Source: Bradyrhizobium sp. CCBAU 53421
GTDB taxonomy: Bacteria > Pseudomonadota > Alphaproteobacteria > Rhizobiales > Xanthobacteraceae
Assembly: GCF_015291625.1 (NCBI RefSeq)
Contig: NZ_CP030047.1
Location: 8,364,501-8,428,500, forward strand
Length of the DNA: 64,000 bases
Direction of reading: 5' to 3'
The notes beneath the pieces are model-generated. The model was not told the origin of the DNA. It did not search any database and saw only the letters and a list, made by a program, of their open reading frames with translations. The stretch's first letter is position 1; each line of letters starts with the position of its first letter. The position numbers and the translations under genes are program-made. This document shows, one piece after another, positions 25,070 to 60,765 of the stretch.

Positions 25070-26839
25070 TCAGTGCCAGCCTTCGCCAGCCTTCAGCGCC
25101 GCCGAGAGGCTGCGCACCGGGCGCGTCACCAGCGGATCGAGATCGAAGCGCTTTTCGAGCAGCCGGAGGATCGACGTGGTGTCGAAGTCCTCGTGCGCGA
25201 CGCCCGACTTGTTGAAGCGCTTGGCAATCAGCAGCGCCGGAATGCGGGTGCCCGGCCCCCACTGGTCCGCAGCACGGGCTTCGGCACCACGACGGTTGTG
25301 CGGCGGGGGCGGAACGTGGTCCCACTGCCCACCGAACTCGTCATAGGTGATGATGATCAGGGTGTCCTTGCCATCCGGCCCTTCGACGATCGCCTTGACG
25401 AGATCGACGAGATGCTGGCTGCCTTCGGATTCGCTGGTGTAGCCCGGATGCTCGTTCTCCTCGCCGATCGGCTTGACGAAGCTGACCTGCTTCAGCCGGC
25501 CGTTCTTGGCCGCCTGGATGAATTCCGCCTCGTCCTTCAGGTGATCCCTGCGGGCCTGCGTTCCCGGCGCGTAGCTGGCGAAGTAGTTGAGCGCCTGATG
25601 GTGGTACTGGAAGTCCACGTCGGGGCAGTTCGGGAACACCGCCGTCGAGACGTGGTTCGGATCGGTGCAGGTCGTGCCGTTGCCGTTGGTCCAGCCGGAC
25701 GCGCCGACATCGCCATTGGCGTTCGACCAGCCGCCCGAATACCAGGCCCAGTCGATATGCTTGGCCGACAGCCGATCGCCGATGTTCGGCGTGTGCAGCG
25801 GCGGCAGGCGCTTGATGTCCGAAGTGCCCGGTGAGTAGGGCTGATAGGTCGGCTGCGTGGTGTTGACCGCATAGTCGCCGCAGGCGAGGCCGGCCGGCAG
25901 ACCGGGCTGGTTGCATTTCGCCGTCAGCTGCGCGTCCTTCACGGTCGAGAGCGGCGTATAGAGCGGCGTGCTGGTCGGCATGCCGTTCGCATCAACGATC
26001 GCGTGGAAGTCATTGGCGCTGCCGTCGTTCAAGGCACCGACGAACTGCGGCGCCGCGGCCGCGACCAGGAACTGGTGGTTGAGGAACGAACCGCCGAAGG
26101 CGCCTTGGAAAAAGCTGTCGGCGATCACATAGTTCGGCGCGCCGTGGCCGTGCAGGTAGGTGTAGATGGGCAGCTTCTTGGTATCGTAGTAGCCCATGAC
26201 AAGACCCGCAGCGTCGCTGCCGGTCATGTAGCGGTTCTGCCGGCCGCCATTGAGCTGGTACTGCTCGCTGTAGAAGCGGTGCACGATGTCCGCGGTGCAG
26301 CCGCCGGGCGCGCCGGTGCCGTTGAGGAAGCCGTGCGCCGCGAAAGCGCCGAGCGGCTTCGGACAGGTGGTCGCCGAGGTCGGGATGAAGTCGTTGATCT
26401 CGAACGGCTTGTTCTTGAAGGCGCTGAGGATCGCGACCGAGCCCGTATTGTCGGTGCAGGTGGTGGGCTGCGGCGACGGCGAGGTCAGGTTGACGTCATT
26501 CTGCAACAGGCAGGCGTAGGCGGTCTGGTTGTCCTGCCGGACCTGCAGCGTATGCGCCTGATCGGCGTCGGAGGTGCCGTTGATCCGGTCACGGCCGACA
26601 TCGCCCCAGTGTCCGTAGAGGTTATCGAAGCTGTGGTTCTCCTGGTAGATGACGACGACGTGCTTGTACTGGTGCACGCCTTCATGACCGCGATCGCGCA
26701 GGTCACGCAGCTCGTCCCTGACCTCGTGCTTGAACTCATCAACGATCTTTTCGACCAAATTCTCGGCGTTTGCCACCGGCGAGATGGCAACGGCGCCAGC
26801 AACAACTGCGAGCGCCGGAATGGCTCCCCAAAGCCGCAT
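25070..26839 (-). CDS. Secreted phosphoesterase 1 (phospholipase C/acid phosphatase AcpA superfamily)
   Basis: 589 residues with a signal peptide (AVVAGAVAISPVANA). The family's first metal/active-site motif is VVIYQENHSFDNLYG near residues 66-80 and the last is IITYDEFGGQWDHVPPP near 495-511, both intact. Members hydrolyse phosphomonoesters or phospholipids outside the cytoplasm. The fold is about 500 residues, so the protein is full length. It is divergent from peroxidase 1, sharing a 307-base regulatory region with a PhoB-box-like sequence, which fits a phosphate-scavenging role. It could be a substrate of the type II system encoded downstream; that is inference. Confidence 0.87.
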   Translation of the reverse strand: MRLWGAIPALAVVAGAVAISPVANAENLVEKIVDEFKHEVRDELRDLRDRGHEGVHQYKHVVVIYQENHSFDNLYGHWGDVGRDRINGTSDADQAHTLQVRQDNQTAYACLLQNDVNLTSPSPQPTTCTDNTGSVAILSAFKNKPFEINDFIPTSATTCPKPLGAFAAHGFLNGTGAPGGCTADIVHRFYSEQYQLNGGRQNRYMTGSDAAGLVMGYYDTKKLPIYTYLHGHGAPNYVIADSFFQGAFGGSFLNHQFLVAAAAPQFVGALNDGSANDFHAIVDANGMPTSTPLYTPLSTVKDAQLTAKCNQPGLPAGLACGDYAVNTTQPTYQPYSPGTSDIKRLPPLHTPNIGDRLSAKHIDWAWYSGGWSNANGDVGASGWTNGNGTTCTDPNHVSTAVFPNCPDVDFQYHHQALNYFASYAPGTQARRDHLKDEAEFIQAAKNGRLKQVSFVKPIGEENEHPGYTSESEGSQHLVDLVKAIVEGPDGKDTLIIITYDEFGGQWDHVPPPPHNRRGAEARAADQWGPGTRIPALLIAKRFNKSGVAHEDFDTTSILRLLEKRFDLDPLVTRPVRSLSAALKAGEGWH

Positions 26840-27146
26840 AGTGCTCTCCTGATTTCAGAAAGAAATAGAAATGGAGTTACACGCTATGCAAAACACATTT
26901 CGCTGGAATGACTGTTTTTCGACGCGAGCACAAACGCGTGAAAAGATGCGCGGGTGCCGACAAGTTTTCGTTCTCTCACATGCAAGTCGGTCTGTGTTTC
27001 GTTGATCGATCGTCATCAAACCGCAATCAACAGTCGTCTATCCAAACAGATGGTCATTGATCCTGCCGACAGGAAACTGTCACCTCCGTGACATCTTCCG
27101 AGGTGCGGCGGCGCAATTGCATTGTGACAGGGGCGTTTTCTCGCAA
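26840..27146. other. 307-base divergent regulatory region of phosphoesterase 1 and peroxidase 1
   Basis: It contains overlapping inverted repeats GACAG/CTGTC (27068-27072, 27077-27081) and TGTCAC/GTGACA (27078-27083, 27088-27093), plus TGTGACAG at 27123-27130. No small gene is convincing. In-frame codons of the peroxidase extend into it from a TTG at 27057, but the ATG at 27147 is the better start. Confidence 0.5.
27077..27094 (+). promoter_or_regulatory. PhoB-box-like sequence CTGTCACCTCCGTGACAT
   Basis: The half-sites CTGTCAC and GTGACAT are four bases apart and match 12 of 14 half-site positions of the classic PhoB box (CTGTCAY-N4-CTGTCAY). It lies 53 bases before the peroxidase 1 ATG and about 240 bases before phosphoesterase 1. 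Because the same bases form a dyad, another regulator is possible. Confidence 0.5.
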
Positions 27147-28577
27147 ATGGCTTGGGATATTCTGGCGTCCGGCTCCGGAAAATGTCGTACGGCATCTGCC
27201 GATCGTGGCGCGCGACCGGCGCGGGTCGCGTTGCTGGCGCTCGTCGTTGCCTTCCTCCCGTCGCGCGCGATGGCATTCCCGCTCGGCGGCGACCAGACCG
27301 TGCTGCCGGCCGGCACCGAATTTTCCGAGGAGGCGCTGGCGCGGCCGCGCGAGCTCTTTCACTCCGAGGCGATCGGTGGTCACAAATCCTATTTGGTCAA
27401 TCTCGGCGATCTCGCGTTCAATTCGCCCTCCGTCTTCGGCGGCAAGGCCCGTCAGGCCGAGATGAGCTGCGGCACCTGTCACGTCAACGGCGCATCAAAC
27501 CCGAAATTGTTCGTTCCGGGCGTATCCTCCCGCCCTGGCACCTTCGACACGACCAGCCTTGTCTTCAATGCGAAGACGTTCAACAGCATCCTCGATCCGG
27601 TCCGGATTCCGAGCCTGCGGGGTGCCCGCTTCCTCGCGCCTTACGGACATGACGGGCGCATGACCTCGCTGCGCGACTTCGTATATAATGTCATCGTCAA
27701 CGAGTTTTCCGGGCCGCGGCCGAGCGATGCGGTTCTCGATGGCCTCGTCGCCTATATCAACGACATCGATTTCCTCCCCAATCCGAAGATTGCGCCGGGC
27801 GGCCGGCTTGCCGCGCAGGCCAGTGTTGAGGAACGGCGCGGCGAGGCGCTGTTCTTCAAGCCATTCCCGAAGCAGGCCGAGCTGAGCTGTGCCGGCTGTC
27901 ATATTCCGGCCGGGACCTTCAACGACCAGCTGCGTCACGACGTCGGATCCGGCGGACTGGTCAAGACCCCCACTCTGCTCAACGCCAACTTCAATGCACC
28001 CTACTTCCACGATGGCCGCTACGACAGCTATGAACAGGTCGTCGATCATTTCGATCGCCTGTTCGACCTCGAACTGTCGACCCAGGACACGCAGGATCTC
28101 GTGGCCTATCTGAAAGCGGTCGGCGACGGCGAACGCCCCTTCGACAAGGACGGCGTCGTGCTCCGGATGAAGGAAGTGCTTGAACTCTCGAGCGTCCTCG
28201 AGGTCGCGATCCCGGCCGCCGATACCGCGGTGGTGTCGCTGGCCGTCACCGGAGTGGGCGCCGAACTGCGTGAGTTGACCGAGCACATCCCCGACATCAG
28301 AAACACCTCGATCGGCGGCAAGGACGAGCGGCTCGCCGCCCGCGCGATCCTGAAGGATCTGGTTCTGACCTTGCGTCGCATCGACCTCGAGGTCGGAGCC
28401 GGTCGGATCGACGAAGCGATGGCGGAGTACCGCAAGTTTGCCCAGCTGGTGAACTTCGACGTTCCGGTCGCCCTGAAAAAGGCCGAGCCCTGGTCGCTGT
28501 TCAACAGCAACGTGCATCAGTCGCACTACACCGCGCTTGGCCGGATGCTGCCAGTGACGAGCCGGCAATCGCAGTAA
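27147..28577 (+). CDS. Di-haem cytochrome c peroxidase-family protein 1 (MauG/CcpA superfamily)
   Basis: 476 residues from ATG 27147. A long n-region precedes the signal peptide helix (VALLALVVAFLPSRAMA), with cleavage before FPLGG. Two haem c sites are visible, CGTCH at 108-112 and CAGCH at 248-252, each at the head of a cytochrome-like domain. The superfamily includes H2O2-reducing peroxidases and MauG-like enzymes that oxidise partner proteins; which applies cannot be told. The C-terminal ~130 residues form an extra helical region. It is a paralogue of the protein at 31693-33069 and is convergent with the small exported protein at 28590. Confidence 0.87.
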   Translation: MAWDILASGSGKCRTASADRGARPARVALLALVVAFLPSRAMAFPLGGDQTVLPAGTEFSEEALARPRELFHSEAIGGHKSYLVNLGDLAFNSPSVFGGKARQAEMSCGTCHVNGASNPKLFVPGVSSRPGTFDTTSLVFNAKTFNSILDPVRIPSLRGARFLAPYGHDGRMTSLRDFVYNVIVNEFSGPRPSDAVLDGLVAYINDIDFLPNPKIAPGGRLAAQASVEERRGEALFFKPFPKQAELSCAGCHIPAGTFNDQLRHDVGSGGLVKTPTLLNANFNAPYFHDGRYDSYEQVVDHFDRLFDLELSTQDTQDLVAYLKAVGDGERPFDKDGVVLRMKEVLELSSVLEVAIPAADTAVVSLAVTGVGAELRELTEHIPDIRNTSIGGKDERLAARAILKDLVLTLRRIDLEVGAGRIDEAMAEYRKFAQLVNFDVPVALKKAEPWSLFNSNVHQSHYTALGRMLPVTSRQSQ

Positions 28578-28589
28578 CGCGCGACGCGA

Positions 28590-29276
28590 TCACTGCGAGG
28601 CCGGCGGCTCGACCCATACGTCGCTCTGCTGAATCCTGCGGATTAGCGCTTGCGGGTCGAATCTGCGCAGACCTGCGGGCACTTCAAAGATTTGTGCCGG
28701 CTGCGGTTCGTCGCGGATGCGATCGGCCGCGATCACCGTCCCATCCGCAGTCTTGATCTGCACCGGAAACCTGCGCGCGCGGTCGACCCAGCCGGTAAAG
28801 CTCAAACCGGACGGCGCCTCGATTCGATAGACGTCGGTGTTGCACCCCGCGATTGCTTCCTCTCCATCGCGCTGGCATTGCCATGTCGCAAGATCGACCG
28901 GCGCGGACAGCTGCGCGATCGCCTGCCATTGCCGGCACGGGTCATCCAGATCGACCGGAACGAACATCCGGGTCAGCGGGCTGGACTGCCTCGCTTCCAT
29001 GAAAACATGTGCACCCGGACGGACGAAATACGCCGCAGGCTTGGCCATGTCGATCAGGAAGAAGCCATCCGGCAGTGCCTTTGCTTCGATCCGTGTCTTC
29101 TGTTGCGAGACACGGATCGTTCCCAGCATGGCCGTCGCTTCGTCCTTGCGCTCAACGAGATCGGCGGAAAACTGCTGGGCCGCGGCCGGCGTCGGAGCAT
29201 GGGCCAGGATCGCAACGGCAACCAGGAAGGTCGCCGCGCTCCGGCTCATCGAGCACGTCTTCACATAGCGCTTCAT
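28590..29276 (-). CDS. Exported hypothetical protein
   Basis: 228 residues from the ATG at 29276, which gives a standard signal peptide (MKRYVKTCSMSRSAATFLVAVAILAHAPTPAAA in outline, cleaved before QQFSADLV). The mature part reads as a beta-rich, LolA/DUF4412-like fold (FSADLVERKDEATAMLGTIRVSQQKTRIEAK, then DGFFLIDMAKPAAYFVRPG), with two cysteine pairs in the middle. I do not recognise a defined family. It lies between the two phosphoesterase/peroxidase modules, 120 bases downstream of phosphoesterase 2 on the same strand, and may be cotranscribed with it. Function unknown. Confidence 0.72.
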   Translation of the reverse strand: MKRYVKTCSMSRSAATFLVAVAILAHAPTPAAAQQFSADLVERKDEATAMLGTIRVSQQKTRIEAKALPDGFFLIDMAKPAAYFVRPGAHVFMEARQSSPLTRMFVPVDLDDPCRQWQAIAQLSAPVDLATWQCQRDGEEAIAGCNTDVYRIEAPSGLSFTGWVDRARRFPVQIKTADGTVIAADRIRDEPQPAQIFEVPAGLRRFDPQALIRRIQQSDVWVEPPASQ

Positions 29277-29396
29277 CGCATATTCCCGGTCGACCAATTG
29301 GCGGGCTGGCAAAACATGACAGCGCCGACCGAACCATCGGTTCGATCGGCGCCGATCTCAGTTCAAATCAAGACCTCGTCCTCGACGAGGGCTCGA

Positions 29397-31454
29397 TCAC
29401 TCGGTGTAGGACAAATTGACCGGCTTGCTGAAGTCGAACGCGTCGAACAGGTCAGACAGGGCCGGGCTGTTGGTCGGGACGTACTCGTTGTTCTTCGTGT
29501 AGGTCGGGTTCGGCAGGTTGTCGCGGCTGCGGTTCGTGAGCGGCTGGAGGGCCCAGTTGCGTTCGATGAACTTCAGCAGCGAAACGTGGTCGGCGTAGTT
29601 GTGGTTGACCTTGCCGCCCGTCGAATAGGGCGAGAGGATCAGGGTCGGGATGCGCGGTCCGTCACCGAAGAAGTCGATCGACTGGGTGTAGCCGGAGTCC
29701 CAGTAGCCGCCGGCTTCGTCCCAGGTGATGAAGACCGCAGTGTCGGCCTTCAGCTCCGGATTGTTGTCCAGCGCGTTGAGCACGTTCAGGACATAGGCCT
29801 CGAACAGATCAACCTTCGAGCTCTGCGGATGACCGTCGAGCAGACCGTCCGGCTTGCCGAACGACACCGCAGGCAGGGTGTTGTTCTGGATCGCCGTGAT
29901 CAGATCGGCCGTGTCCTTCATGTGAGCCTGACGCACGGTCGCATTGGCCATGATCGAGGTCGCATACTGGAACGGATTGCAGATCTGGCAGTAGGCAACA
30001 CCGAGCGCGTGTGCCGGATCGGCAACCGCGGCGGCGCTGAGGTTAGGGTTCGACGGATTGGCGGCGACCGCGGCGTTGGCAAGTGCCACGGCGTCGTTGA
30101 ATGCACCACCATAGAACGCCCAGGTAATGTTCTTCTCGATCAGCGCGTCACCGATCGTGCGAACCGACGACGGCGGAACGTTGTTGCCGCCCGACAGCGC
30201 GCCGTTCGGCAGATAGCCCGGATTGACGTTGTTGAGCATGTAGTAGTGGTTGGGCTTGCAGTTCGGCTCCGCCGCGTACGGCAGATTGTTGAGGTAGGTG
30301 ACGATCGGCTTCACGCCGGGCTGGAACACGTCGGAGCAGTTGCTCCAATTGCCGTCGACGGTGTAGCGGTTGACCGATCCCGCGACCGGGTTCGGGTTGG
30401 CGATCAGGTTCGCCGGCGGCGTCACCGGATTGCCCTTGCCGTCGCTCCAGAAGGCCGCATCGCCGGTGCCGAGCATGAAGTGGTTCGCGCCGGTGCCACC
30501 ATGGAACGACTGGTGGAAGTTGTCGCTCAGCGTGAAGCGGTCGGCGAGCATCTTCAGGATCGGGGCCTGACCCTGCTGGGCGTTGTAGAAGCCCATCGAG
30601 TTGGCCATGCTCTTGTTGGACGCCGAATAAGTCGCCATCACGAACGGGAACAGGTCGTTGAGGCAGCCCGAATTGTTCTTCTTGGTGGCGTTGGCGGCGC
30701 TGCAATCTTCCTGCTGCCAATCCTGATAGAAGCGATGGGTCGAGTCGCCGGTGTAGTCGTCGTCGCTGATCTGCTCACCCTGCAGCTGGAACGGTCCGTT
30801 CAGACCGCCGGCGCCGGGAATGCGGGTATCAAGCACACCGGTGGGCAGGCCGCTGAAGCCAGTGGTGAGGATGTCGAGATCCGCCGGATCCATGTCCTTC
30901 TCGACGCTGGCCTCAGTGATCGTCTTGAACGGAGGCGACGTGTCGCTCTGCGCGGTCGGCGTGCCATTGGTGTTCGGCTGCGGCATCAAATTGGTCGCGT
31001 TGTAGGGCGACTTCGCGATCGCCGGCGCACCGATGTAGAAGGACGGCTGGCCCGCGACCGAGTACTGCTGCGCTTGCGCAAAGTTCGGTCCCGGCGTTCC
31101 ATCCTCGTTGACGATCCCCTTCGACAACAGATTGGAGATGGTCTGCCCCTTGCCCTTCGGCTTGTAGATACCGAACGTGTGATCCAGACCGCGATTCTCG
31201 CCGATCAGGATGATGACGTGCTTGATCGGCGAAGCGGTCTTGCCCTTGTCGCCGTGATCCTTGTCGTCATGATCGTGGTCATGCTTGACGCGATCAGCTT
31301 CCTGATGCGCCTGGTTGTTGTGATGCGGACGCTTGTCCCAATCACTGCGGCCGCCCGGATAGTGAGCGGCATATGCGGCTGTTGCGACGAGCACCGTTGA
31401 CGCGATGCAGAGCGCGGTGCTGGTTCGCCAGTGCTTTTTGTAATTCAAACTCAT
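29397..31454 (-). CDS. Secreted phosphoesterase 2 (phospholipase C/acid phosphatase-like)
   Basis: 685 residues from the ATG at 31454, which begins the signal peptide (STALCIASTVLVATAAYAA). A 36-residue upstream in-frame extension was rejected. A His/Asp-rich stretch (residues 50-75, HDHDHDDKDHGDKG) could bind metal. The first family motif is IILIGENRGLDHTFG near residue 82. The last is ITWDEAGGYWDSG, which lacks the usual histidine after the final Asp. So it is a divergent relative of phosphoesterase 1, about 100 residues longer. It lies downstream of imelysin-peroxidase 2 on the same strand with a structured 238-base gap. Substrate unknown. Confidence 0.83.
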   Translation of the reverse strand: MSLNYKKHWRTSTALCIASTVLVATAAYAAHYPGGRSDWDKRPHHNNQAHQEADRVKHDHDHDDKDHGDKGKTASPIKHVIILIGENRGLDHTFGIYKPKGKGQTISNLLSKGIVNEDGTPGPNFAQAQQYSVAGQPSFYIGAPAIAKSPYNATNLMPQPNTNGTPTAQSDTSPPFKTITEASVEKDMDPADLDILTTGFSGLPTGVLDTRIPGAGGLNGPFQLQGEQISDDDYTGDSTHRFYQDWQQEDCSAANATKKNNSGCLNDLFPFVMATYSASNKSMANSMGFYNAQQGQAPILKMLADRFTLSDNFHQSFHGGTGANHFMLGTGDAAFWSDGKGNPVTPPANLIANPNPVAGSVNRYTVDGNWSNCSDVFQPGVKPIVTYLNNLPYAAEPNCKPNHYYMLNNVNPGYLPNGALSGGNNVPPSSVRTIGDALIEKNITWAFYGGAFNDAVALANAAVAANPSNPNLSAAAVADPAHALGVAYCQICNPFQYATSIMANATVRQAHMKDTADLITAIQNNTLPAVSFGKPDGLLDGHPQSSKVDLFEAYVLNVLNALDNNPELKADTAVFITWDEAGGYWDSGYTQSIDFFGDGPRIPTLILSPYSTGGKVNHNYADHVSLLKFIERNWALQPLTNRSRDNLPNPTYTKNNEYVPTNSPALSDLFDAFDFSKPVNLSYTE

Positions 31455-31644
31455 TGTCGACCTCAGGGTGTTTGCGGTTAGCAACACGCCCTGCTTAGTG
31501 CGACAGTATGACGCATGGTTTTCGCTTACGTGAAAGCGCCCAAGAATTTTCGAACCGTTCAAAAAATTTCCGCGGAGATATTCTGCTGCCGCACGCTGCG
31601 TCTCCGCGATTCAACTCTTCAATTGAAGATCGAAAATAGATGGA

Positions 31645-33866: not shown

Positions 33867-33927
33867 CTGCCGCGAAGGGCTCGCGGCACGTAGCGGTGCG
33901 AACTATTGTCGGTATCCTATGCGGATT

Positions 33928-33936
33928 TGTGACAGC
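33928..33936. promoter_or_regulatory. TGTGACAGC motif in the imelysin/prepilin peptidase divergent region
   Basis: The same nine bases occur at 42881-42889 before the gsp genes. On the minus strand it reads CTGTCACAAATC, matching a PhoB half-site and linker, but the second half-site is poor. The 33867-34095 gap also holds GATCGT/ACGATC (33969-33974, 33980-33985) and AGTGTG/CACACT (34063-34068, 34078-34083). Confidence 0.4.
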
Positions 33937-34095
33937 GCAGACTTTTTGTCGCATCTTTTCTGCTTCGCGATCGTTGTCGACGATCACAATCCCGCAAACG
34001 CATCATGCGGCTGCCGGGCAATTGAAAATGCACTGTTCAACGCGCGCGAGTTGTTGCAACACAGTGTGTCCACGCGTCACACTTGTCCCGCCACC

Positions 34096-45478: not shown

Positions 45479-45500
45479 GCAGAGCAGCACGCTGCGCCCC

Positions 45501-46028: not shown

Positions 46029-46079
46029 TCGCCGATCGCATAAACCCGGGCTGCGCGCATGACGCTGGCGCTTCCCGGA

Positions 46080-46106: not shown

Positions 46107-46138
46107 CCCCGGGGCCGCGATCCAGCAGCCTCGCTGCA

Positions 46139-55100: not shown

Positions 55101-58100
55101 GATGCCGTGACGTCTGCCGGTATCGGTACGTCGTACATCAGCGTGGTGAAGGTGAGAGTCAACGCCGTCGGCAGCGGTCGACCTGCCGGAATCGTGAACG
55201 ATTGCTTGAGCTTTACGGCAGAGGGCGTCGGCGTGCCTGCGGGCAGCACACCGCCCGCCAGTTCGGCGTTGTCGCCGATCAGGATGTTGCCGGCTGTCGA
55301 GATCGTCAGCGTGCCGCCGTCCGTGACGCCCCAGGCGCGGATCGTACCGTCGAGAACAAGGTTTCCATCGCCCGGCGTTCCGCCATCCTGCTGGGTGTGC
55401 CCCGCGATGATCGTGACGTTGCCGCCTTTTCCGCCTCGCGTCTTGCCGTTGGCAAGAACGGCGCCGCCGGAGGACACGTCGATCACGCTGCCGGCAGCGA
55501 GCGTGACATTCTGAGTGGAATCGAAGGTGACGTTGCCGCCATCGAGGAAGCCGAGGCCCGACGCGCTGTCCGGATTGGTCAACGCATTGACCCACAGGCC
55601 GCGCGTATCGATGGTGACGCCGGATTCCAGCGTCAGCGACGCGCCCCCGGTCGCGTTGGTCAGCGTGACCGTGCCGGTCGCAGTATTGAGGATGTTGCTG
55701 ACCGTGACGCTACCGGAGCGCGCGGCGATGTCGGCTGCGATATCGACCGCCGGCGCGATCAGCTTGACCTGCGCCCCCGCCGAGAACTCTAGCGGCGCAT
55801 TGACGGCGATCTTGTTAGCCGTGTTGATGTTGAGGCCGCCGAGTCCGAAGCCGTTGAGCGTCGGCGCGTCGAACCAGGCCGTGTTCACGCGATCCGCCGG
55901 CAGCGCGGAAGTCAAACCAAGATTGCCGGTGACTGGCGCAACGTTGCCGAACGACACATCGGTGTTGTAGGCGCCGGCGAGGCCATAGCCGTTGTACTGC
56001 CCGAGCGTCAGCGTGCCGGCGAGCGGCACGGTGTTCTGCGTCAACTTGTAGCCGTCGGTGACGCCGGTCGGACGTTTGGTGACCTGCGCTTCGCCGTCGA
56101 CCACGTTGGCGAGGATCGTGCCTTCGAACACCGAGGTCGGGGTCGCGAGAATGAGGCTACCCGCGTCGCGGCCCACGGTGTAGCCGTTTTCCCAGCGCGT
56201 GCGGCCTTTACCGAACGGGCTGAGATAGACCTCGACGACGTTCCAGTGCGCGTGATTGACGATGAAGCCGTTCGCCACCGCGACATAGGTCAGATTGGCC
56301 GGGGCATCATCGGCATTGTAGATGCGGCCGTCACTGCCGAGCAGCATCGTCTGCTGCACATAGCCGCCCTGGTACTGCACAGCGCCGCCGGAGATGTTGA
56401 AGATCGAGCCGTGCTGCGCCACCACTTCCGGCGCGGACAGCGTGATGGTGCCGCCGACCGCGGTCCATTCGCCGATCTTGTGGCCGGTGTTGTTGAGATA
56501 GCCGGACACCTCGAGCAGGCCGCCCGCGGTGTAGTAGCGGTCCGTCGCATAGCCGCCGGTGCCGGCCGGCACCAAAGTGAGATCGCGGGCATCGATCCAC
56601 ATGTTGCTGTTGAGCAGCGTGCCGTTGTCGCGGTTCTGCGGGCTGTCGCGCAGCTCGTTGCCCTGGACGTTGACCTTGATCGAATTGGCCGACGCGGGCA
56701 GCACGGTGCCGGTGGTGCCGGAGACGTCGATGACGGATCCGCTTTCGGCGAACACGCGCTTGCCGGCGGAGGCCGTGACCTGGCCGCCTTGCGCCATGCT
56801 CAGCGAGCCATTCCTGAAATCGATGGTGCCGCCAGTGACGATCTCGATCCGCGACTGGTCGGGGCGATCGGACAGCGTGGAGAGATTGTCGAACTGACCG
56901 GTCGCGAGCTGGTTCGGCTTGGCCGACGCGATCAGCGCATCGCGCTGCGAATTGAACGCGGTCACGCTCGGATCGATGCCGGACACCAGCGCGGCTGCGG
57001 CATCGGTCTCCGGCAGGATCAGGCTGATGCCGTTGTTGGTCAGCGTAATGCTGCCGGTGGCATCGGACGCCGAGTTGAGCAGATGGATGGTGCCGCGCTG
57101 ATTGACCGAGGTGGTGGAGAGAACAATGCCGTCCTGGGTGACGGCATGACCGGCGAGCGTGATGTCGCCCTGCTGGGCGAGCACGAGACCCGTGTTGGTG
57201 ACCGTGCCGCTGCTGCTTCCGCCGCGCAGCACCGGCGCGATCTCGTTGCCGCGCGTGGTCGAGTTCTGGTTGGTATTGGTGCCATAGCCGGCGCGCAGGA
57301 TGAAATCGTCGCCGGCCGCGAACTGGGTCTGTCCCTTCGGCGTGGTGATGGCGCCGGCATTGTCGACTTCGGTGCCCATCAGCAGCACGAAGCCGCCGCC
57401 TCCCGTGATCGAGGACGGCGCATTGGTGGTGATCAGCGCGCCGCTCTCGACCACGATCTTGCCGCCGGCGCCGGTGAAGCTCGGCAGATAATTGGTGCCG
57501 CTCTGGGTCGAATAGAGACCGTTGGCGAGGAACCGGCTGTCGGCGATATTGGCGCTGGACGCAATCAGCGAGCCGACATTGATCTGGCTCGCGCCGCCGA
57601 AAATGATGCCGTTCTGGTTGATCACCAGCACCTGCCCCGGTGCGGTGATGCGGCCGAGGATCTGGCTCGGTCCGGTATTGCCGACGACGCGATTGAGCGC
57701 GGTCCAGTTGCTGGCCTGCTGGTTGAAGTTGAGCGTGGTCTGGCTGCCGACGTTGAAACTCTGCCAGTTGAGGATCGCCTGCGGCGCGGTCTGATTGACG
57801 CTGACATTGGTCTGGCCGCCGCTTGCGGTCTGGCTCGGCAGCGCGGCGCCTTGCCAAAGGCTCGAGCCGGGCACGGCGCCCGGGGCAACCTGAAGCCCGC
57901 CCGGCGCGAGGCCGTTCGGCACTGCCACTTGCGGCAACGTGGTCGATCGCTGCGAGGCGGCAGCCGCGTTGCGTGCGGCGGATTGCGCGGCCTGCAACGC
58001 CTGGATGGCCTGGGTCGCCCGCGTCAACGCGCCCTGGCTTTGCCTCGCGACGTCGGCCGCCCGCTGGGCCGCGGCCGCTGCCGCATCGCTGGCGATTGCC

Positions 58101-58294
58101 GGCGCCGCCGTCGTCGTCGCGAAACTGCCGAACGGACGCGCGAATGCGCCCTCGAACCCGCTCAGCAGCAGCGCCAGCGTGCTCGTTCCGGCGAGCAGCA
58201 TGGAGCGGGACGCCCATCCGATCCGCTGCCGCGGAGGCGCGACCCTATGCGGGTCGAGGCGAGGACGGCGGGCAACGCGCTGACGAGACGGCAT
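46139..58294 (-). CDS. Giant filamentous-haemagglutinin-like exoprotein (TpsA type, PdtA-like)
   Basis: 4051 residues from ATG 58294 (a GTG at 58315 is possible). The signal region is extended (basic residues 1-30, then SMLLAGTSTLALLLSG). An Ala/Gln helical stretch covers 65-118. A TPS haemagglutination-activity domain spans about 155-300, with ILNWQSFNVG and INQNGIIFGG at 174-234. Several thousand residues of beta-helix repeats follow, then a DUF3739-like region and a Gln/Pro-rich tail. TpsA proteins are exported through a TpsB channel into adhesins or processed exoproteins; no tpsB lies in the window. It is downstream of fecR and the sigma gene on the same strand, like pdtA in the PUMA3 locus. 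Confidence 0.88.
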   Translation of the reverse strand: MPSRQRVARRPRLDPHRVAPPRQRIGWASRSMLLAGTSTLALLLSGFEGAFARPFGSFATTTAAPAIASDAAAAAAQRAADVARQSQGALTRATQAIQALQAAQSAARNAAAASQRSTTLPQVAVPNGLAPGGLQVAPGAVPGSSLWQGAALPSQTASGGQTNVSVNQTAPQAILNWQSFNVGSQTTLNFNQQASNWTALNRVVGNTGPSQILGRITAPGQVLVINQNGIIFGGASQINVGSLIASSANIADSRFLANGLYSTQSGTNYLPSFTGAGGKIVVESGALITTNAPSSITGGGGFVLLMGTEVDNAGAITTPKGQTQFAAGDDFILRAGYGTNTNQNSTTRGNEIAPVLRGGSSSGTVTNTGLVLAQQGDITLAGHAVTQDGIVLSTTSVNQRGTIHLLNSASDATGSITLTNNGISLILPETDAAAALVSGIDPSVTAFNSQRDALIASAKPNQLATGQFDNLSTLSDRPDQSRIEIVTGGTIDFRNGSLSMAQGGQVTASAGKRVFAESGSVIDVSGTTGTVLPASANSIKVNVQGNELRDSPQNRDNGTLLNSNMWIDARDLTLVPAGTGGYATDRYYTAGGLLEVSGYLNNTGHKIGEWTAVGGTITLSAPEVVAQHGSIFNISGGAVQYQGGYVQQTMLLGSDGRIYNADDAPANLTYVAVANGFIVNHAHWNVVEVYLSPFGKGRTRWENGYTVGRDAGSLILATPTSVFEGTILANVVDGEAQVTKRPTGVTDGYKLTQNTVPLAGTLTLGQYNGYGLAGAYNTDVSFGNVAPVTGNLGLTSALPADRVNTAWFDAPTLNGFGLGGLNINTANKIAVNAPLEFSAGAQVKLIAPAVDIAADIAARSGSVTVSNILNTATGTVTLTNATGGASLTLESGVTIDTRGLWVNALTNPDSASGLGFLDGGNVTFDSTQNVTLAAGSVIDVSSGGAVLANGKTRGGKGGNVTIIAGHTQQDGGTPGDGNLVLDGTIRAWGVTDGGTLTISTAGNILIGDNAELAGGVLPAGTPTPSAVKLKQSFTIPAGRPLPTALTLTFTTLMYDVPIPADVTASGVPTAPTGADWTLPQGIDGPQSKDSNGQTHYWGTGDVIPAGTVFTAWSGTGHISAGVVIPSNVFPNGIPIAPYQVTYAAGSIQSTPMTYPVGAVIPAGVVLPQTVQITPAPALNPSFFTAGFSNYDINGGLGVVVANNTVLAAAMPVYRFTSNSYAAPTGSDPAAALALWTPPLFTGNSLKAAVTQRDGASLTLRSLIRSGSGPLAGGGAIVVGDGASLSVDPGQSITLDAFGQISVFGNLTAHGGSINLVNDAYSAPVPAGLNFDLNGNRRGVSIWIDAAAKLDVSGLAYQATDTAGHLFGRATDGGSITINGGGAFVIVRPGAKLNADGTQVTIDLAAGGATASSLPQAITTNGGSIALASQSGLYLDGDIHAFSGGGSAAGGSLSIALTTPNFAKSLFPHEAPPDNVVFPSVMTVVQARPNSSLPEDIAPGTGASRLAFGQATVSADMVKAGGFDSLTLTSGDYMAFSGNVSLTLGRSLTLTAAAFTSGVPVAGPIDASMPATTGSVKVSAPYILFTEPLANVPDTAVSGSIRNPGGAALPTTATFEADANQIDIQGLIGFSARAPENMYAPGFLTTRFVSQGDIRFLSMPGVVATQLSTSGNLELLAAQIYPATNTVATVIAGSGNSDPTTTLTIGRTTDAIPDAPLSVFGQLAFQAPVIEQGGIVRAPLGLLTFGLSWPVFTPHVDLLPGSLTSVSMAGLTIPYGGTIDGVTYTYNGTSIRAIGVTNFNNNGPQSGIILDGQSINVASGAILDMSGGGTLAGAGFVSGRGGSVNVISTPLVNANPATPVSKATDKVYAILPGYSSSYAPIAPENGAGDPVVGQQITVPAGVPGLPAGTYTLLPSNYTLLPGAYRVELGGSTTTPVGSPITIGNGTYAASVTTGIANTAIKDSLPVTALITAGTSVRKYSQFNEQSYSDFLLANVAQFGGVRPLLPSDGKTLEIMFERPNATPIGPALTFDGTALFQGTQGGNAGQVALLNVGEIYADAPTQGFSSPSVDAADLNALKAPRLLINGTVIVANGTLTLTQPYGYDLFIRDGVSLSAGEMFFIGNNISVGNNVTLSTVGQGAVPFDSVSTGMSYAVNQFTVLALSNGNVNFLPSNVGNGSITIGAGSSLYSEGTLAFVTNGASTLDPTAHFGSSNIALAVGTINIGDAATVAAAGAPAGLMFDQTLFNTLLHGDPLHGAPELKTITLSAANSINLFGGAGLDATGSGVNLVLNTSAIYGYGAAGDNSTIAANKITWNGLSGATPPAIAAGGPGTGAGTLNFVADEIDFGRFASLDASTASRVIYGFSNVNITANSRIVSAGNSKLFVYQAPSADPAAVFGQSGIGGNLTLTTPLLTGAQKSIMAYSAGGALNVVAPAGIAPSAAGSTVAGAEIDLTGGSVGIYSTILLPSGKLVVNATGDIALGGASRIDLGGRPSTIQTATVYGFGGTAIFNSAQGSLTQLAGSVIDVSATNAGAGSISIAAANGQVTLGGALNGAATGGYASGDFSVSSGTLSSSDFAALNVLLTRGGFFDARAFDIRNGDLVIGDGVKASSVTVAVDNGSLSVVGTIDASGAAPGTIRLSAGNGLALAPSAVLDVHGTVLQVDSYGQPIGARNRGHIELTAAGGALTLSPGATMNLSTPNGIAYGDVVLNAQRTGETSGDIAINAAGRLNINGAYSIALNAFWTYDLPGGSSISQATLDGYDIASTAFINAASGNAALAARVAGLSAYGSAYHLRPGVQITSSGDLSTSGDIDLAKYRYGVGADRDPNSANYGAGEPMALVIRAGGNVAVNGSISDGFKSSPGAPARVTIFDITNSSFFAQRSSNGYTYWFGDQTDVYVVSNWTVPNDAFYNWWMSNYWGPLVDTNNNSYNPGDTIPAGTILSAGNSYGFAFEPGNMPTVAIVNTPAIPGAAATTPGAQMLAPGSLSASIRLVAGADLTAADQRALQTTQALNGRGNLTLSDPAYNSSRNGTFFSVLRTGTGSLDLLSGGSFSEATPYGVYTAGTQAAPILAADGSNPYDLVGVTSSGNSHAWYTEHGGDLLLTAQQDITGNLQIADNNTRFADSNLTANWLRLQGGGASADPAAWWINFGSLAKTYPYSNSQQLIGFQGIGTLGGGNLTVIAGGNAGVTGNSSTGLDLAVASTGRVLANGTLVETGGGNLVVKIGGGLNPVVPTTPNGQGQVPDYFGSFTNLRGDTTVSAGSVGALAPNTWGSYLVSYDPRAVDPNVFKRSLKTPGPLVIPGDGSVSITTRGDLVLGGAGDAGMAQPVDLNGIAYTVRNADGTTTLTSGGQSNFTLWRPGTAINLYAAGGDAAVLSGVSLNGTGFFPGTLIVAAANGDIRFTEPGSGGGNSIIELTPSPLGQLELLAAGSIYGTGQVVAISGAEMSTLATPFNPVFATRTGGGGYSNAWANAAFRDNSFNPIAFGEDLPISNLHAGDSQPALVYAGVDIVDLTLGQVLTKTRTASAGFYPTHSTWYIAAKPFEVIAGRDIVGTGPVPSVFLNNGPDDISLMQAGRDIFYQSVTVLGPGLFQLQAGRNLYQGYFGSLVSAGDIVNQSNTAGGAGIVAIAGTGANGPDYTDFAKLYFDAANQLPGDGTPLAGSGKVAKTYADELYDWLRERFSPSRNYSYDGRSYVFTGAKQDALAFFLTLPVQQQGVFVRQVYYTELKESGREYNNEHSSRHKSYLRGREAIATLFPDQDAQGKPLAYSGKITMFSGFTKDIFSNTYLADAGIQTQFGGDIQVLNPGGQTIVGIEGVTPGPGAGLITQGQNSNIDVYSLGSVLLGQSRIMTTFGGNILAWSAIGDINAGRGSKTTVIYTPPLRSYDAYGNIKLSPAAPASGAGIATLAPIPGTPPSDVDLIAPLGTIDAGEAGIRVSGNVNLAALQVVNAANIQVQGTSTGIPTVQGPPVGALTAASNTTAASQQAAAPPPKNNDQPSVIIVEVMGYGGGDGSPSQEPPEQQPKPRDKQTYNENSAFQVIGLGDATGASGR

Positions 58295-58450
58295 GGGATG
58301 TTCCCCGGGAACCACGGACGGAAGGATGCGCAGATCCGATCTGCGCCGGTGCTCGTCACACGGCTTGACCGTATGGCAGGCTTCTCGTCCCCAAGGACGC
58401 CATTTGATCGGCGGGACCGAACGACAAAATCGCGACCTGCATCACAATTC

Positions 58451-58458
58451 CTGTCACA
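58451..58458. promoter_or_regulatory. CTGTCACA motif upstream of the giant exoprotein gene
   Basis: On the minus strand this is TGTGACAG, identical to motifs at 27123, 33928 and 42881. It lies about 157 bases before the exoprotein start in the 195-base gap after fecR. A second TGTGA follows 12 bases further in the transcription direction. Confidence 0.4.
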
Positions 58459-58489
58459 GGCGATCCGCGCTTTCATGGCTCGCGCGACA

Positions 58490-59470
58490 TCAGCTCAGCA
58501 GCACGATGCCGCCGGGCAGGTGTCGCGCCTTCGCGCCGAAAATCTGCTGGAACATGTTGAGGATGTCGTCGACATTGTCGATGCGGAACCGGCCGTTGAC
58601 GAGACGGTGTTCCAATTCCGCGTTCGTCACCATGACCTTGCCCGGCCGGTAACGATTGATCTCCGTCACGACATTGCCCAGCGGAGTGTCATGAAAGATC
58701 AGCATTCCGTCGCGCCAGGCTGTCACCTCGGCGAGATCGACCGACATGGGCGCGGCGAGACCAAGCGCTGTATAGCTGACCTGCTGCCCCGCGCGCAGCG
58801 CCGCGACGGAGCCGTGGCGAGTGACCTGCACCTCGCCATCGAGACACGTCACGCAGGTGCTGCGCTGCTCATGACGGACGTTGAACTGGGCCTGACGCGC
58901 CCTCATCTCGCCATCGCCGGCAACCACGCGCACCTCGCGGCTCGCGGACGACGCAGCGATCACGGCTTCCCCGGTCAGGATCTCGATGCGATCGAGGTTG
59001 GCATCGCCCGGCTGGACATTGACGCTGGTGCCGGTGTTCAGCGTCATCTTGATCCCGCCATCGATCGTGAGCTTGCGCTGCTCGCCGGCGGCGGTGCGAT
59101 AATCCGCCATCACGTCCTGCAGCGATGGCCACAGTTGCAGCGGCGGCGACACCACGAGATATGCGGCGGCCGACGTCGCAAGCGCGCCTCCGAGCATCGC
59201 CCGCCGCGTCATGCGCGGCTGCCGCCGGACGTCCGCCAGTACGGAATCGCCACGCCGCTTCAATAGGTTGGCGCCGGCCGGGCCGAGCTGATCCCACAGC
59301 AGGCTGGCCTGAGCCAGCGCCTCCGAATGAGCGCTGCTCCGGCTTCCCCAGTGCCTGGTGTCCTCGATGTCCCGCCGGGTAGCCTGACCCGAACCAAGCC
59401 GCTGGACGCGTGCAAGCGCCTCGCTCTCGATCGCGGTCAGCTCCTCCGACGGTTCGTCGCTACGTGTCAT
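58490..59470 (-). CDS. FecR-family anti-sigma/sigma regulator (VreR-like)
   Basis: 326 residues from the ATG at 59470. The cytoplasmic N-terminal part (8-75, DUF4880-like) should bind the sigma factor. A membrane segment covers about 91-110 and is preceded by RMTRRAM. The periplasmic FecR domain spans 130-235 (DRIEILTGEAVIAASS, ARQAQFNVRHEQRSTCVTCLDGEVQV) and includes a CVTC pair that could form a disulphide. The last ~70 residues resemble an STN module (HDTPLGNVVTEINRYRPGKV). The sigma gene is 69 bases upstream and the exoprotein gene follows, so it most likely controls that sigma. Confidence 0.88.
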   Translation of the reverse strand: MTRSDEPSEELTAIESEALARVQRLGSGQATRRDIEDTRHWGSRSSAHSEALAQASLLWDQLGPAGANLLKRRGDSVLADVRRQPRMTRRAMLGGALATSAAAYLVVSPPLQLWPSLQDVMADYRTAAGEQRKLTIDGGIKMTLNTGTSVNVQPGDANLDRIEILTGEAVIAASSASREVRVVAGDGEMRARQAQFNVRHEQRSTCVTCLDGEVQVTRHGSVAALRAGQQVSYTALGLAAPMSVDLAEVTAWRDGMLIFHDTPLGNVVTEINRYRPGKVMVTNAELEHRLVNGRFRIDNVDDILNMFQQIFGAKARHLPGGIVLLS

Positions 59471-59539
59471 CGACCGGGCGTTTCTCTTGCCAGCACTTCC
59501 ATCCAACTACGCAACACTCCGACACTCTCCTATCAGGTA

Positions 59540-60082
59540 TCAGGACGTTTCCCGTGGTGCCGGACCGAAACGTCTTGTGACCTTTTTATTAAACCGCTTG
59601 GCGCAATGCTCGAGCGCGGCTTTCAACTCAAGCTCCACCAAGCGCTGGGAGACCCCGAGATGCTCGGCGATTTCCCGGAGCGGGGTACCGTCCAGGCGCG
59701 ATGCGAGCAGGATCGTCCGGCGGCGCGGCGTGAGTTCCTCGAGCACCTGCTCCAGGTACGCAATCTGTGCCCGCGACTCGACCTCGCGTTCCGGCCCGGG
59801 CGCCGCGTCGACGATCTCGAGCATCGGCTGCACCTCGAACCGCTTGATCCGGCGCGTCTCCTGGCGCTCCCGGCTGATCGCAAGATTGAGCGCGCTGCGC
59901 AGCAGATAGCCGATCGGGCTGTCCACCACGCCCGGACCGTTCTTGTCGCGAAGATGCAGCCAGGTCTCGTGCAGGGTCTCGCGCGCCCGCTCGTCGCCGA
60001 GGCGACGCGCGAGGCGGCGCCGAAGCTCGTCGTAGCGCTCGACGAGCACCTGCCGAAGCGTCGTCCAAGTGGTCTCCGTCAT
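59540..60082 (-). CDS. ECF RNA polymerase sigma factor, FecI/VreI-like
   Basis: 180 residues. Region 2 (about 10-75) includes ARETLHETWLHLRDKNGPGVVDSPIGYLLRSALNLAISRERQ in outline, and region 4 (about 110-165) has the HTH REIAEHLGVSQRLVELELKAALEHC. The iron-starvation/cell-surface-signalling class is indicated by the FecR partner gene and by this region 4 style. Its ATG overlaps the stop of the STN gene by four bases (60079-60082). It probably directs transcription of the exoprotein and secretion genes, as VreI does in Pseudomonas. Confidence 0.9.
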   Translation of the reverse strand: MTETTWTTLRQVLVERYDELRRRLARRLGDERARETLHETWLHLRDKNGPGVVDSPIGYLLRSALNLAISRERQETRRIKRFEVQPMLEIVDAAPGPEREVESRAQIAYLEQVLEELTPRRRTILLASRLDGTPLREIAEHLGVSQRLVELELKAALEHCAKRFNKKVTRRFGPAPRETS

Positions 60083-60765
60083 CGCGAGACCAGTCCCGGG
60101 CGCCTAGGATCCCGCGCAGCGCAGTCGCCGGTCTCGGACGGCGGCCGCGGCGAAACCGCCATCACGACGGGTTGCGGCATATCCGGTGGCGGCGGCCGGC
60201 CGATCACGACGGCACGCAACATAGCGGTGATCGCCTGATCGCGCGCGCTGTCATCGGTCGAACCGAGCAGCTGGGGCTGCAGTACCTCGCCCGCATGCCC
60301 GATCCAGAATTTGAACTTGATCCGATAGCCACCCGGCGCGGTCAGCGCGGAGGCGCAGAATGCCTCCTCGATGCTGCTCTGGACGGAAGCAAGATACGGC
60401 ATGAAACCGCGGATCGACGCCGTTTGCGGCGGAGCCGTCGCCGGCACGATCGTGAAGGCGTTCGCCGCGGCATAGACCGCAACCAGACCGGTGCCTTCGA
60501 GCAGAAGCTGCAACGCCATGTCGGGCGTCATCGATCCCTTGACGGCCCGTGCGCGGCGGCCCGCGGCCAGGGTGGCGTCGTAGACGACCTGACGCCCCGT
60601 GGCCGCGCTGTAGGCGTCGAGCGCGGAGACAAGCGGTTGGCTGCCAATATCGAAATCGACCGCTGCCGGTGTCCGAACTGATTCAAGGCTCGCGGCCATC
60701 GTTACCGTCTGAATATTCCCGGCAACGAGAGTGCCTATGACCAGGCCAAGAAAGCGCTGCCACAT
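60079..60765 (-). CDS. Free-standing STN plus TonB-C-like protein (VreA-like signal transducer)
   Basis: 228 residues from ATG 60765, which gives a clean signal peptide (FLGLVIGTLVAGNIQTVTMAA); longer in-frame starts exist at 60804 and 60858. The STN domain is at about 38-108 (VDFDIGSQPLVSALDAYSAATGRQVVYD in outline, then GSMTPDMALQLLLEGTGL). A TonB C-terminal-like domain follows at 120-195 (GYRIKFKFWIGHAGEVLQPQ, ARDQAITAMLRAVVIGRPPPP). There is no beta-barrel or plug, unlike FecA-type receptors. The same architecture characterises VreA of the P. aeruginosa PUMA3 system. It is coupled to the sigma gene. Confidence 0.85.
   Translation of the reverse strand: MWQRFLGLVIGTLVAGNIQTVTMAASLESVRTPAAVDFDIGSQPLVSALDAYSAATGRQVVYDATLAAGRRARAVKGSMTPDMALQLLLEGTGLVAVYAAANAFTIVPATAPPQTASIRGFMPYLASVQSSIEEAFCASALTAPGGYRIKFKFWIGHAGEVLQPQLLGSTDDSARDQAITAMLRAVVIGRPPPPDMPQPVVMAVSPRPPSETGDCAARDPRRPGLVSR

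Follow-up and report, generated by a model that had tools for sequence, protein, structure and literature searches.

A PUMA3-type cassette with a PhoB-like promoter signature beside a type II secretion island in Bradyrhizobium

Gene organization of the locus

The window, the 64,000-nucleotide stretch of the Bradyrhizobium sp. CCBAU 53421 genome analysed here, contains a type II secretion system (T2SS) island and an adjoining cassette of signalling and exoprotein genes (Table 1). The genes named in a sequence-only reading of this DNA, namely phosphoesterases, a prepilin peptidase, a T2SS set, a TpsA exoprotein, FecR, an ECF sigma factor and an STN/TonB-C protein, are all found where it placed them, with the GspC call resting solely on an NCBIfam hit that falls short of the threshold (20 bits, where the cut-off is 150). 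The T2SS genes run C (weak)-M-L-K-J-I-H-G-F-E on the minus strand, with gspD on the plus strand. Parts of the two oppositely oriented peroxidase genes, A and B, form an inverted repeat (70–76%). Family scans of the exported protein at 28590-29312 gave, at the thresholds used, nothing but one chance-level match. Directly upstream of the cassette are genes for a PepSY_TM protein and a TonB-dependent receptor, neither of which appeared in the sequence-only reading. The open reading frames scanned within the window yielded neither exbB nor tonB.

Table 1. Features of the locus, in window coordinates
Feature	Position	Strand	Basis or remark
Phosphoesterase 1 (PF04185)	25070-26839	-	Pfam
Di-haem peroxidase A (CCP_MauG)	27057-28577	+	Pfam
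Exported protein, no assigned family	28590-29312	-	Linked to island by conserved position
Phosphoesterase 2 (PF04185)	29397-31562	-	Pfam; Sec-type signal judged by eye
Di-haem peroxidase B (CCP_MauG)	31693-33069	-	Pfam
Imelysin (Peptidase_M75)	33066-33866	-	Pfam
Prepilin peptidase GspO (Peptidase_A24)	33844-34587	+	Pfam
GspC-like protein	34599 to ~35250	-	Weak NCBIfam match
GspM (T2SSM_b)	35243-35806	-	Pfam
GspL	35803-36879	-	Pfam
GspK	36876 to ~37800	-	Pfam
GspJ pseudopilin	37793-38503	-	N-methylation motif and gene order
GspI pseudopilin	38500-38961	-	Pfam/NCBIfam
GspH pseudopilin	38885-39358	-	N-methylation motif and gene order
GspG pseudopilin	39365-39880	-	Pfam/NCBIfam
GspF	39898-41109	-	Pfam
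GspE ATPase	41114-42790	-	Pfam
GspD secretin	43103-45478	+	Exceeds TIGR02517 cut-off
Sel1-repeat protein, adjoining GspD	45393-46028	+	Pfam
Cassette, approximate extent, Sel1 to PepSY	46029-60940		Empty site in 4 relatives
TpsA/PdtA-like exoprotein, 4058 codons	46139-58315	-	PF05860 (TPS) and PF12545 (DUF3739)
VreR-like FecR anti-sigma factor	58490-59506	-	Pfam FecR and FecR_C
VreI-like ECF sigma factor	59540-60082	-	Sigma70_r4_2, sigma70-ECF
VreA-like STN/TonB-C protein, no barrel	60079-60858	-	Pfam STN and TonB_2; start tentative
-10-like hexamer TATGTT, exactly 10 nt past Pho-box-like element	60907-60912	-	TAnnnT statistics
Pho-box-like element CTGTTAGCAAATTGTCAC, upstream of STN gene	60923-60940	-	Overlaps PepSY stop codon
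PepSY_TM protein, flanking-island member	60934-62475	-	Pfam; beside Sel1 in 4 empty-site relatives
TonB-dependent receptor	62421-64751 (window ends at 64000)	-	Pfam on in-window part

The signalling module and its exoprotein

The VreA-like protein has an N-terminal membrane or signal helix, an STN signalling domain and a TolA/TonB C-terminal domain. In Foldseek searches its AlphaFold2 model matches the signalling domains of FpvA and PupB and domain III of TolA (including P. aeruginosa 1lr0, at E 0.04), and the protein is predicted to combine an FpvA/PupB-type signalling domain with a TolA-type C-terminal domain. The C-terminal part of FecR is of the PupR type, with a sequence match to chain 6ovk_R. 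The exoprotein frame of 4058 codons is GTG-started, its start being tentative. TPS genes adjoin the sampled modules, although in one sample genome (G032) tpsA precedes the STN gene instead of following FecR. The assignment of STN-ECF-FecR-TpsA as a PUMA3-type (VreA-VreI-VreR-PdtA) module is supported by its domain architecture, its predicted fold and the order of its genes. The claimed likeness to PUMA3 is supported for these four genes, but not for the whole combination as one conserved system. A GC profile in 2-kb steps over the cassette (62–67%) has nothing striking.

The genome carries further copies of this machinery. The only matches to the ECF factor in its own genome are three other such modules, and there are three DUF3739 TpsA proteins, that of the window included. 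No tpsB, exbB or tonB was found within the cassette's locus; the only ShlB-type TpsB of the genome is encoded about 400 kb away, together with ExbB and TonB genes and its own module copy.

Since the TonB receptor and PepSY genes are directly upstream, and the PDB entries that match the STN domain in sequence are iron and haem receptors, the module could be read as iron-type surface signalling for that receptor. Unlike in iron-type Fec signalling, however, the STN domain is here on a separate barrel-less protein, and none was found in the adjacent receptor, by Pfam in its in-window part or on reading the full frame. The receptor and PepSY genes remain with the T2SS in four genomes that do not have the module, of the modules tested in this genome only VreA-type ones have a similar ECF and FecR, and the promoter signature is PhoB-type. 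With no STN domain found in the receptor, a receptor-PepSY pair independent of the module and this kinship of ECF and FecR, the iron-type reading is rejected as very unlikely.

A phosphate-type promoter before the STN gene

The element at 60923 is the sole composite site (Pho box plus TAnnnT) scoring at least 8 in 77.5 kb, that is, the window plus 13.5 kb. The composite signature is kept in the window and in all eight aligned orthologous upstream regions, and B. embrapense keeps it although its cassette is located elsewhere. The box departs from the consensus at four of its 14 fixed bases. When only mismatches are counted, a random stretch of the same size equals it in 17% of draws, while by weight matrix this occurs in 0.7%. 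Scanning the window with the plain consensus at three or fewer mismatches misses this site and stays at chance level (four sites against 3.2 expected). Over the genome, Pho boxes with at most two mismatches number 39, against six in a reversed control, and the only perfect one is about 4 kb upstream of phoU.

The spacing is the distinctive feature. Among 30 sampled VreA-like upstream regions, which include close relatives (G028/G039/G267b and G369/G161/G460), TAnnnT follows the best weight-matrix site at exactly 10 nt in 16 and the composite signal is missing from the other 14; 30 other offsets give one count in total, and random windows have it at 0.6%. The same offset is found in none of the upstream regions of TpsA (0/26), FecR (0/30), ECF (0/36), TpsB (0/13), ExbB (0/14), GspD (0/8) or GspE (0/8), that is, 0/135 for the seven non-VreA classes pooled. 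These counts and those that follow cover regions with at least 200 nt of upstream DNA and at or above the stated bit score. With the plain consensus in place of the matrix, TAnnnT lies at offset 10 from the best site in 11/30 regions; when up to six mismatches are allowed, 18/30 have the combination at offset 10, compared with 0 to 3 at 15 other offsets tested. Without the spacing, the matrix score is far less telling, because it reaches P <0.05 in 5/26 TpsA regions as well as in 11/26 STN regions, and the coding strand exceeds the other strand in 15/26 TpsA and 17/26 STN regions.

The exact 10-nt spacing supports, in silico, the idea of phosphate control for the cassette, whose promoter looks PhoB-type. 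The proposal that the region encodes a phosphate-stress surface programme thus keeps its footing at the cassette promoter, by signature and conservation, but not in the T2SS island, where the 77.5-kb scan at a score of at least 8 found no PhoB-type composite site. Between phosphoesterase 1 and peroxidase A, a match at 27077-27094 recurs with two to four mismatches in the window and in 10/10 aligned relatives. It was rejected as a PhoB site (three mismatches): it is a palindrome, TGTCAC-N4-GTGACA, with no TAnnnT at +10, and may therefore belong to another regulator.

Before tpsA, the best Pho box scores no better than random stretches. A motif search there first returned the end of the FecR coding sequence. 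Confined to non-coding DNA (16 sequences, with seven near-identical relatives set aside), it gave an AT-rich motif scoring 122.5 at width 30, compared with a maximum of 97.6 in ten shuffles, and 128.6 at width 36, compared with a shuffle maximum of 111.1. This motif was not used because its instance in the window is weak, and the search did not securely find a sigma-dependent tpsA promoter in the non-coding upstream DNA.

Relationship between the cassette and the T2SS island

Gene order compared across Bradyrhizobium is conserved in one part and variable in the other. The linkage of imelysin to the T2SS is kept in all 12 genomes of the genus sample where it could be tested, this one counted, while the module is beside the island in a minority: the T2SS-phosphoesterase-peroxidase-imelysin island has no adjoining module in 10 of its 13 carriers. 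The peroxidase and imelysin genes, described earlier as additions to a PUMA3 system, are indeed present, but peroxidase B and imelysin belong to this separate island. In four relatives the site is empty, with 34–113 bp from Sel1 to PepSY. A single insertion of the cassette is the simplest reading, though a weakly supported one, because the branch joining the two cassette-plus groups in the relatives' tree has a support of 45; the branch placing B. embrapense has 53. This tree covers 19 genomes, G063, G037 and G065 with partial data, and leaves out G002, G009, G014 and the other modules of the same genome.

A different view is that the entire region was inherited as one PUMA3/Hxc-like locus, with the T2SS and phosphoesterase genes under the ECF factor just as VreI governs such genes in P. 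aeruginosa. There, in the available parts of two accounts, VreI overproduction raises the hxc genes and lapA (PMC2729926, PMC7035377). The same functional classes are adjacent here, the order VreAIR-T2SS-TpsA is found in four sampled genomes and VreAIR-FHA-T2SS in Cupriavidus basilensis pRK1-2, and the tree branch favouring late insertion has little support. Against it, besides the carriers with no adjoining module, is the ancestry of both parts. GspD is 26–30% identical to that of the T2SS sets beside other PUMA3 modules, and a long branch separates the two in a GspE+GspF tree, although GspE is still 43–50% identical between these lineages; the comparators are genomes with Hxc-like gene order and Cupriavidus, in place of P. 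aeruginosa Hxc itself. In an ECF/FecR/STN tree of 36 modules, restricted to ECF matches of at least 50 bits with FecR within 3 kb, the window's module is outside the T2SS-linked group, and its sister is module L150 on a plasmid of Methylosinus trichosporium OB3b (support 100). That module likewise has STN-sigma-FecR-filamentous haemagglutinin, but no T2SS gene is annotated in the stretch examined; a tblastn comparison of its TonB receptor region with the window's receptor gave no match at E 0.001. Counts from the phylum search, which scored at most seven candidates per genome, are to be read as "at least". Finally, the stretch around the gspE-gspD gap (42650-43250) is 90–92% similar to the window in the four empty-site genomes and 89–96% in seven cassette-plus genomes; being equally similar with or without the cassette, it has no evident cassette-specific element. 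Inheritance of the cassette within an Hxc-like locus does not seem to fit, and this reading is rejected as highly improbable on module absence, module tree and T2SS distance, with the relatives' tree weak. The suggestion that one conserved combination recurs here is not supported, on the same points together with the module's closest sampled relative, which has no T2SS gene in the stretch examined, and the island's lack of a detected PhoB-type site.

Whether the two neighbours cooperate is a separate question. That the cassette is beside the T2SS by chance, with no functional connection, has somewhat less than an even chance of being right. It agrees with a cassette present or absent at one site, with the failure to find a promoter common to cassette and T2SS, and with the genome's other two TpsA modules, around which no T2SS genes lie in the stretches examined. 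However, T2SS and DUF3739-type TPS genes also adjoin in the four VreAIR-T2SS-TpsA genomes and on Cupriavidus pRK1-2, and in three Bradyrhizobium genomes a different T2SS adjoins TpsB-ExbB. A more speculative idea, which we consider rather unlikely, is that VreAIR-TpsA cassettes under PhoB control travel as phosphate-stress units and have more than once come to lie beside unrelated T2SS sets because the exporters cooperate. If so, the Bradyrhizobium island would have been put together recently and have evolved separately as a counterpart to the PUMA3-Hxc programme of Pseudomonas, and sister species with and without the cassette would form a natural experiment.

Proposed mechanism

The reading we favour, and hold to be reasonably probable, is that a PUMA3-type cassette entered a Bradyrhizobium subclade, most simply once, between the Sel1 and PepSY genes. 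The insertion point would be the edge of an older island, with TonB receptor-PepSY on one side and Sel1-T2SS-imelysin-di-haem peroxidases-phosphoesterases on the other. Under phosphate starvation, PhoB would switch on the promoter at 60907-60940, leading to expression of the STN-ECF-FecR operon. The sigma factor would stay sequestered by FecR until a signal is relayed through the periplasmic STN/TonB-C protein and, once released, would transcribe tpsA. The exoprotein would be exported through the distant ShlB-type transporter, while the T2SS island, separately controlled, would export a different set of proteins, probably including the phosphoesterases.

The signature of Pho box, 10 nt and TAnnnT offers a testable marker of many VreA-type modules outside Pseudomonas, and its presence in so many suggests a signalling system with phosphate control at its core. 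Comparison of cassette-plus with empty-site Bradyrhizobium would be a direct test of what the exoprotein contributes to a T2SS-phosphoesterase island.

Comparison with known systems

The titles and abstract openings searched do not describe this island. In the parts of the P. aeruginosa accounts available (PMC2729926, PMC4971064, PMC7035377), PUMA3 shares with the present locus a barrel-less receptor of STN plus TolA/TonB type, an ECF factor, FecR, a giant TPS exoprotein, a Pho-box promoter before the vreA gene and a T2SS nearby. Compared with PUMA3-Hxc as described there, the T2SS here belongs to a separate island on the far side of tpsA and is only distantly related to the T2SS of the other modules sampled, no tpsB is present at the locus, the phosphoesterases are PF04185, a TonB receptor, peroxidases and imelysin are nearby, and no Pho box was found before tpsA, unlike before pdtA. 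In Caulobacter crescentus, an alphaproteobacterial T2SS is likewise tied to phosphate starvation and phosphatase activity through ElpS, though the available part of that account mentions no PUMA3 module (PMC2996285).

An account of PUMA3 clusters in Rhodopseudomonas palustris appeared in 2009 (Llamas 2009, PMC2729926). As far as the available text goes, R. palustris has four copies per genome; tpsA follows three of them, and tpsB with exbB and a porin follows the fourth, the same arrangement as in the present genome, and a link to a T2SS is not mentioned. PUMA3 was thus already known in a relative of Bradyrhizobium, and the Bradyrhizobium layout looks like that of Pseudomonas but was apparently assembled separately.

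Gene content of the window

All gene classes claimed in the sequence-only reading were found by profile searches of the window, which lies in a genome of 9.26 Mb on a single contig. The cassette, made up of the STN/TonB-C (VreA-like), ECF (VreI-like), FecR (VreR-like) and TpsA/DUF3739 exoprotein (PdtA-like) genes, is, as judged from sequence, a PUMA3-type unit with a putative PhoB-type promoter signature. It is present or absent beside an older island of type II secretion system (T2SS) and phosphoesterase genes.

Genes and sequence elements of the window
Feature	Position	Strand	Remarks
TPR protein	19303-20259	-
FecR-domain protein, second	20244-20900	-
DUF5801-repeat exoprotein	21302-25000	+	1232 residues
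Phosphoesterase 1 (PF04185)			Leftmost of series
Element CCGACAGGAAACTGTCACCTCCGTGACAT	27066-27094		Gap between phosphoesterase 1 and peroxidase A
Di-haem peroxidase A	27057-28577	+	Second in series
Exported protein	28590-29312		Third in series; 240 residues, no known family
Phosphoesterase 2			Fourth in series
Di-haem peroxidase B	31693-33069		Fifth in series
Imelysin			Sixth in series
Prepilin peptidase		+	Seventh in series
T2SS C (weak), M, L, K, J, I, H, G, F, E		-
T2SS D (GspD)		+
Sel1 protein		+	After T2SS set
TPS/DUF3739 exoprotein (TpsA)			After Sel1; 4058 codons
FecR	58490-59506		Followed by ECF
ECF			Followed by STN/TonB-C protein
STN/TonB-C protein
TATGTT of composite site	60907-60912
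Box of composite site	60923-60940
PepSY_TM and TonB-dependent receptor			Immediately upstream of STN/TonB-C gene; receptor 776 residues

The VreA-like protein has STN and TonB_2 domains (Pfam) and matches the signalling domains of FecA, FemA, FpvA and PupB in a sequence search of the PDB. Foldseek matches its AlphaFold2 model (mean pLDDT 83, pTM 0.50) to the PupB and FpvA signalling domains at E about 1e-6; the matches to TolA domain III are weaker, with a best E of 0.001 and E 0.04 for P. aeruginosa 1lr0. Llamas et al. modelled VreA with the help of FpvA and of the TolA domain from P. aeruginosa, which appears in print as 1LRO (PMC2729926). No STN domain was found in the adjoining TonB-dependent receptor, by Pfam scan of its in-window part or on reading the full frame. 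The window FecR matches chain 6ovk_R in the PDB sequence search; a twin-arginine-like stretch, RRQPRMTRRAMLGG, precedes its membrane segment.

The two di-haem peroxidase genes are related and lie in opposite orientation on either side of phosphoesterase 2, as an inverted repeat (70-76%); copy B alone was seen in the stretch examined in five outer relatives (G015, G041, G032, G053 and G048). The exported protein keeps its place beside phosphoesterase 2 in the island and in relatives. CCGACAGGAAACTGTCACCTCCGTGACAT, which contains the palindrome TGTCAC-N4-GTGACA, is largely conserved in the window and 10 relatives, while the rest of the gap varies more. The DUF5801-repeat exoprotein adjoins the T2SS island in several relatives (53-86% identity); beside it in the window are an unrelated FecR-domain protein and a TPR protein.

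Distribution of the cassette in Bradyrhizobium

Among 60 genomes of the genus, own genome included, 13 have an orthologue of the window T2SS (GspD 76% or more) and three an orthologue of the window STN protein (89% or more). Gene order, which the sequence-only reading suggested comparing across Bradyrhizobium genomes, is conserved for the linkage of T2SS, imelysin, peroxidase B and phosphoesterase 2, found in all 12 members whose contig reaches far enough (own included; the thirteenth, G037, ends too soon). The cassette is absent beside the T2SS in 10 of the 13 carriers within the stretch fetched. At the empty site in four genomes (sample members G010, G042 and G049 plus B. embrapense, G066), TonB receptor-PepSY directly adjoins Sel1-GspD, 34 to 113 bp separating the aligned Sel1 and PepSY protein ends. 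The cassette occupies the site in the own genome, G004, B. macuxiense, Bradyrhizobium sp. C9 and B. tropiciagri, as well as in NAS96.2, which is counted since its STN and T2SS loci come from contigs of equal length (30167); it is partly visible in G060 and G062, where the stretch or contig stops within TpsA.

Nine island proteins, concatenated from 19 genomes, give a tree compatible with a single gain of the cassette, but support is 45 for the branch joining the two cassette-plus groups and 53 for the placement of B. embrapense. In B. embrapense, a separate contig carries a related cassette (STN 79%, FecR 89% identical).

Promoter signature

The own genome has 39 matches to CTGTCATN4CTGTCAT with up to two mismatches, versus six for the reversed pattern, and none of the 39 falls within the window. 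The sole perfect match lies some 4 kb ahead of phoU, at the position expected for pstS. A weight matrix built from the 39 sites was used to find the best coding-strand site in the 400 nt preceding each of 30 VreA-like genes, some of which are close relatives, so that independent cases are fewer than 30. TAnnnT lies exactly 10 nt past this site in 16 of the 30 regions, the other 30 offsets together giving one count. The same offset gave TAnnnT in 0.6% of random windows (n=2000) and in none of 135 regions before TpsA, FecR, ECF, TpsB, ExbB, GspD and GspE. With the plain consensus instead of the matrix the figure is 11/30, and with up to six mismatches 18/30, against 0 to 3 at 15 other offsets tested. 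Carriers of the composite signal include Bradyrhizobium, the betaproteobacterium Cupriavidus and genomes of other classes. The Pho-box score without the spacing is less telling (P below 0.05 in 11/26 STN and 5/26 TpsA regions), and by mismatch count the site in the window does not stand out (P 0.17).

Over the window and a further 13.5 kb, the site ahead of the STN gene is the sole composite site scoring 8 or more. Its box is conserved in the window and all eight orthologous regions aligned, including that of B. embrapense, in which the DNA further upstream is unrelated to the window's. Scans of the island stretches from the four empty-site genomes and from the cassette-less G003, G037, G015, G041, G032, G053 and G048 gave no such composite site. 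Mismatch and matrix scans gave no good Pho box ahead of the window tpsA; in G351, G369, G197 and G460 a high-scoring box precedes tpsA on the opposite strand.

T2SS of other PUMA3 modules

The order VreA-VreI-VreR-T2SS-TpsA, which resembles that of P. aeruginosa, occurs in at least four genomes with sampled modules (G197, G369, G161 and G460; counts from the wider module search are lower bounds), and Cupriavidus basilensis pRK1-2 has the order VreAIR-FHA-T2SS. The T2SS of these five, the set compared here in place of P. aeruginosa Hxc itself, form a clade separated by a long branch from the window T2SS, with identities of 26-30% (GspD), 28-31% (GspF) and 43-50% (GspE). In a tree of ECF, FecR and STN from 36 modules, the window module groups with its orthologues, and the sister of this group, with support 100, is the module on the Methylosinus OB3b plasmid. 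No T2SS gene accompanies that plasmid module in the stretch shown; T2SS-linked modules occupy three other positions. Another T2SS type (GspD 53-56%) occurs in three Bradyrhizobium genomes (G014, G002 and G009), close to an ECF gene that adjoins TpsB-ExbB-Porin_5 and is divergent from it; no STN or FecR was found beside this ECF gene. In G014 it lies at L098:4887-5582. Since the VreAIR-T2SS-TpsA genomes, pRK1-2 and these three loci all pair them, T2SS and TPS genes are neighbours in several settings. In the window, the sigma factor would control tpsA, the T2SS may secrete the phosphoesterases and the two exporters might cooperate.

Comparison with known systems

A related STN protein was found at nine named loci, seven of them Bradyrhizobium, and the window STN protein has six matches in its own genome. 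Combined with FecR and ECF matches, these give full modules at 8424 kb (the window), 6113 kb, 626 kb and 8828 kb, to which the genome matches of the window ECF are confined. The three DUF3739 occurrences in the genome lie one each beside the first three modules. After the fourth module come genes for TpsB (ShlB/POTRA) and for ExbB-type, TonB and Porin_5 proteins, and the genome encodes a single ShlB-family protein. The window FecR is not significantly similar to the FecR regions L002, L005, L006 and L008. The ExbB-type protein at L020:8101-10137 has DUF2341 and laminin-G domains ahead of its MotA/ExbB domain, and its relatives occur in other TpsB clusters.

The likeness to P. aeruginosa PUMA3 is drawn from domains, fold, gene order and published descriptions. 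In P. aeruginosa, PhoB binds Pho boxes ahead of vreA, pdtA and phdA (PMC4971064); pdtA thus differs from the window tpsA, which has no good box. The soil Pseudomonas SBW25 is described as secreting, on phosphate depletion, a large exoprotein that contains an adhesin-related domain (PMC5082522), in keeping with the overall picture. Llamas et al. (PMC2729926) report four PUMA3 clusters in Rhodopseudomonas palustris, three with tpsA and one with tpsB-exbBD. Since this arrangement resembles the four modules described here (three exoproteins, one transporter), PUMA3 is not new in this family.
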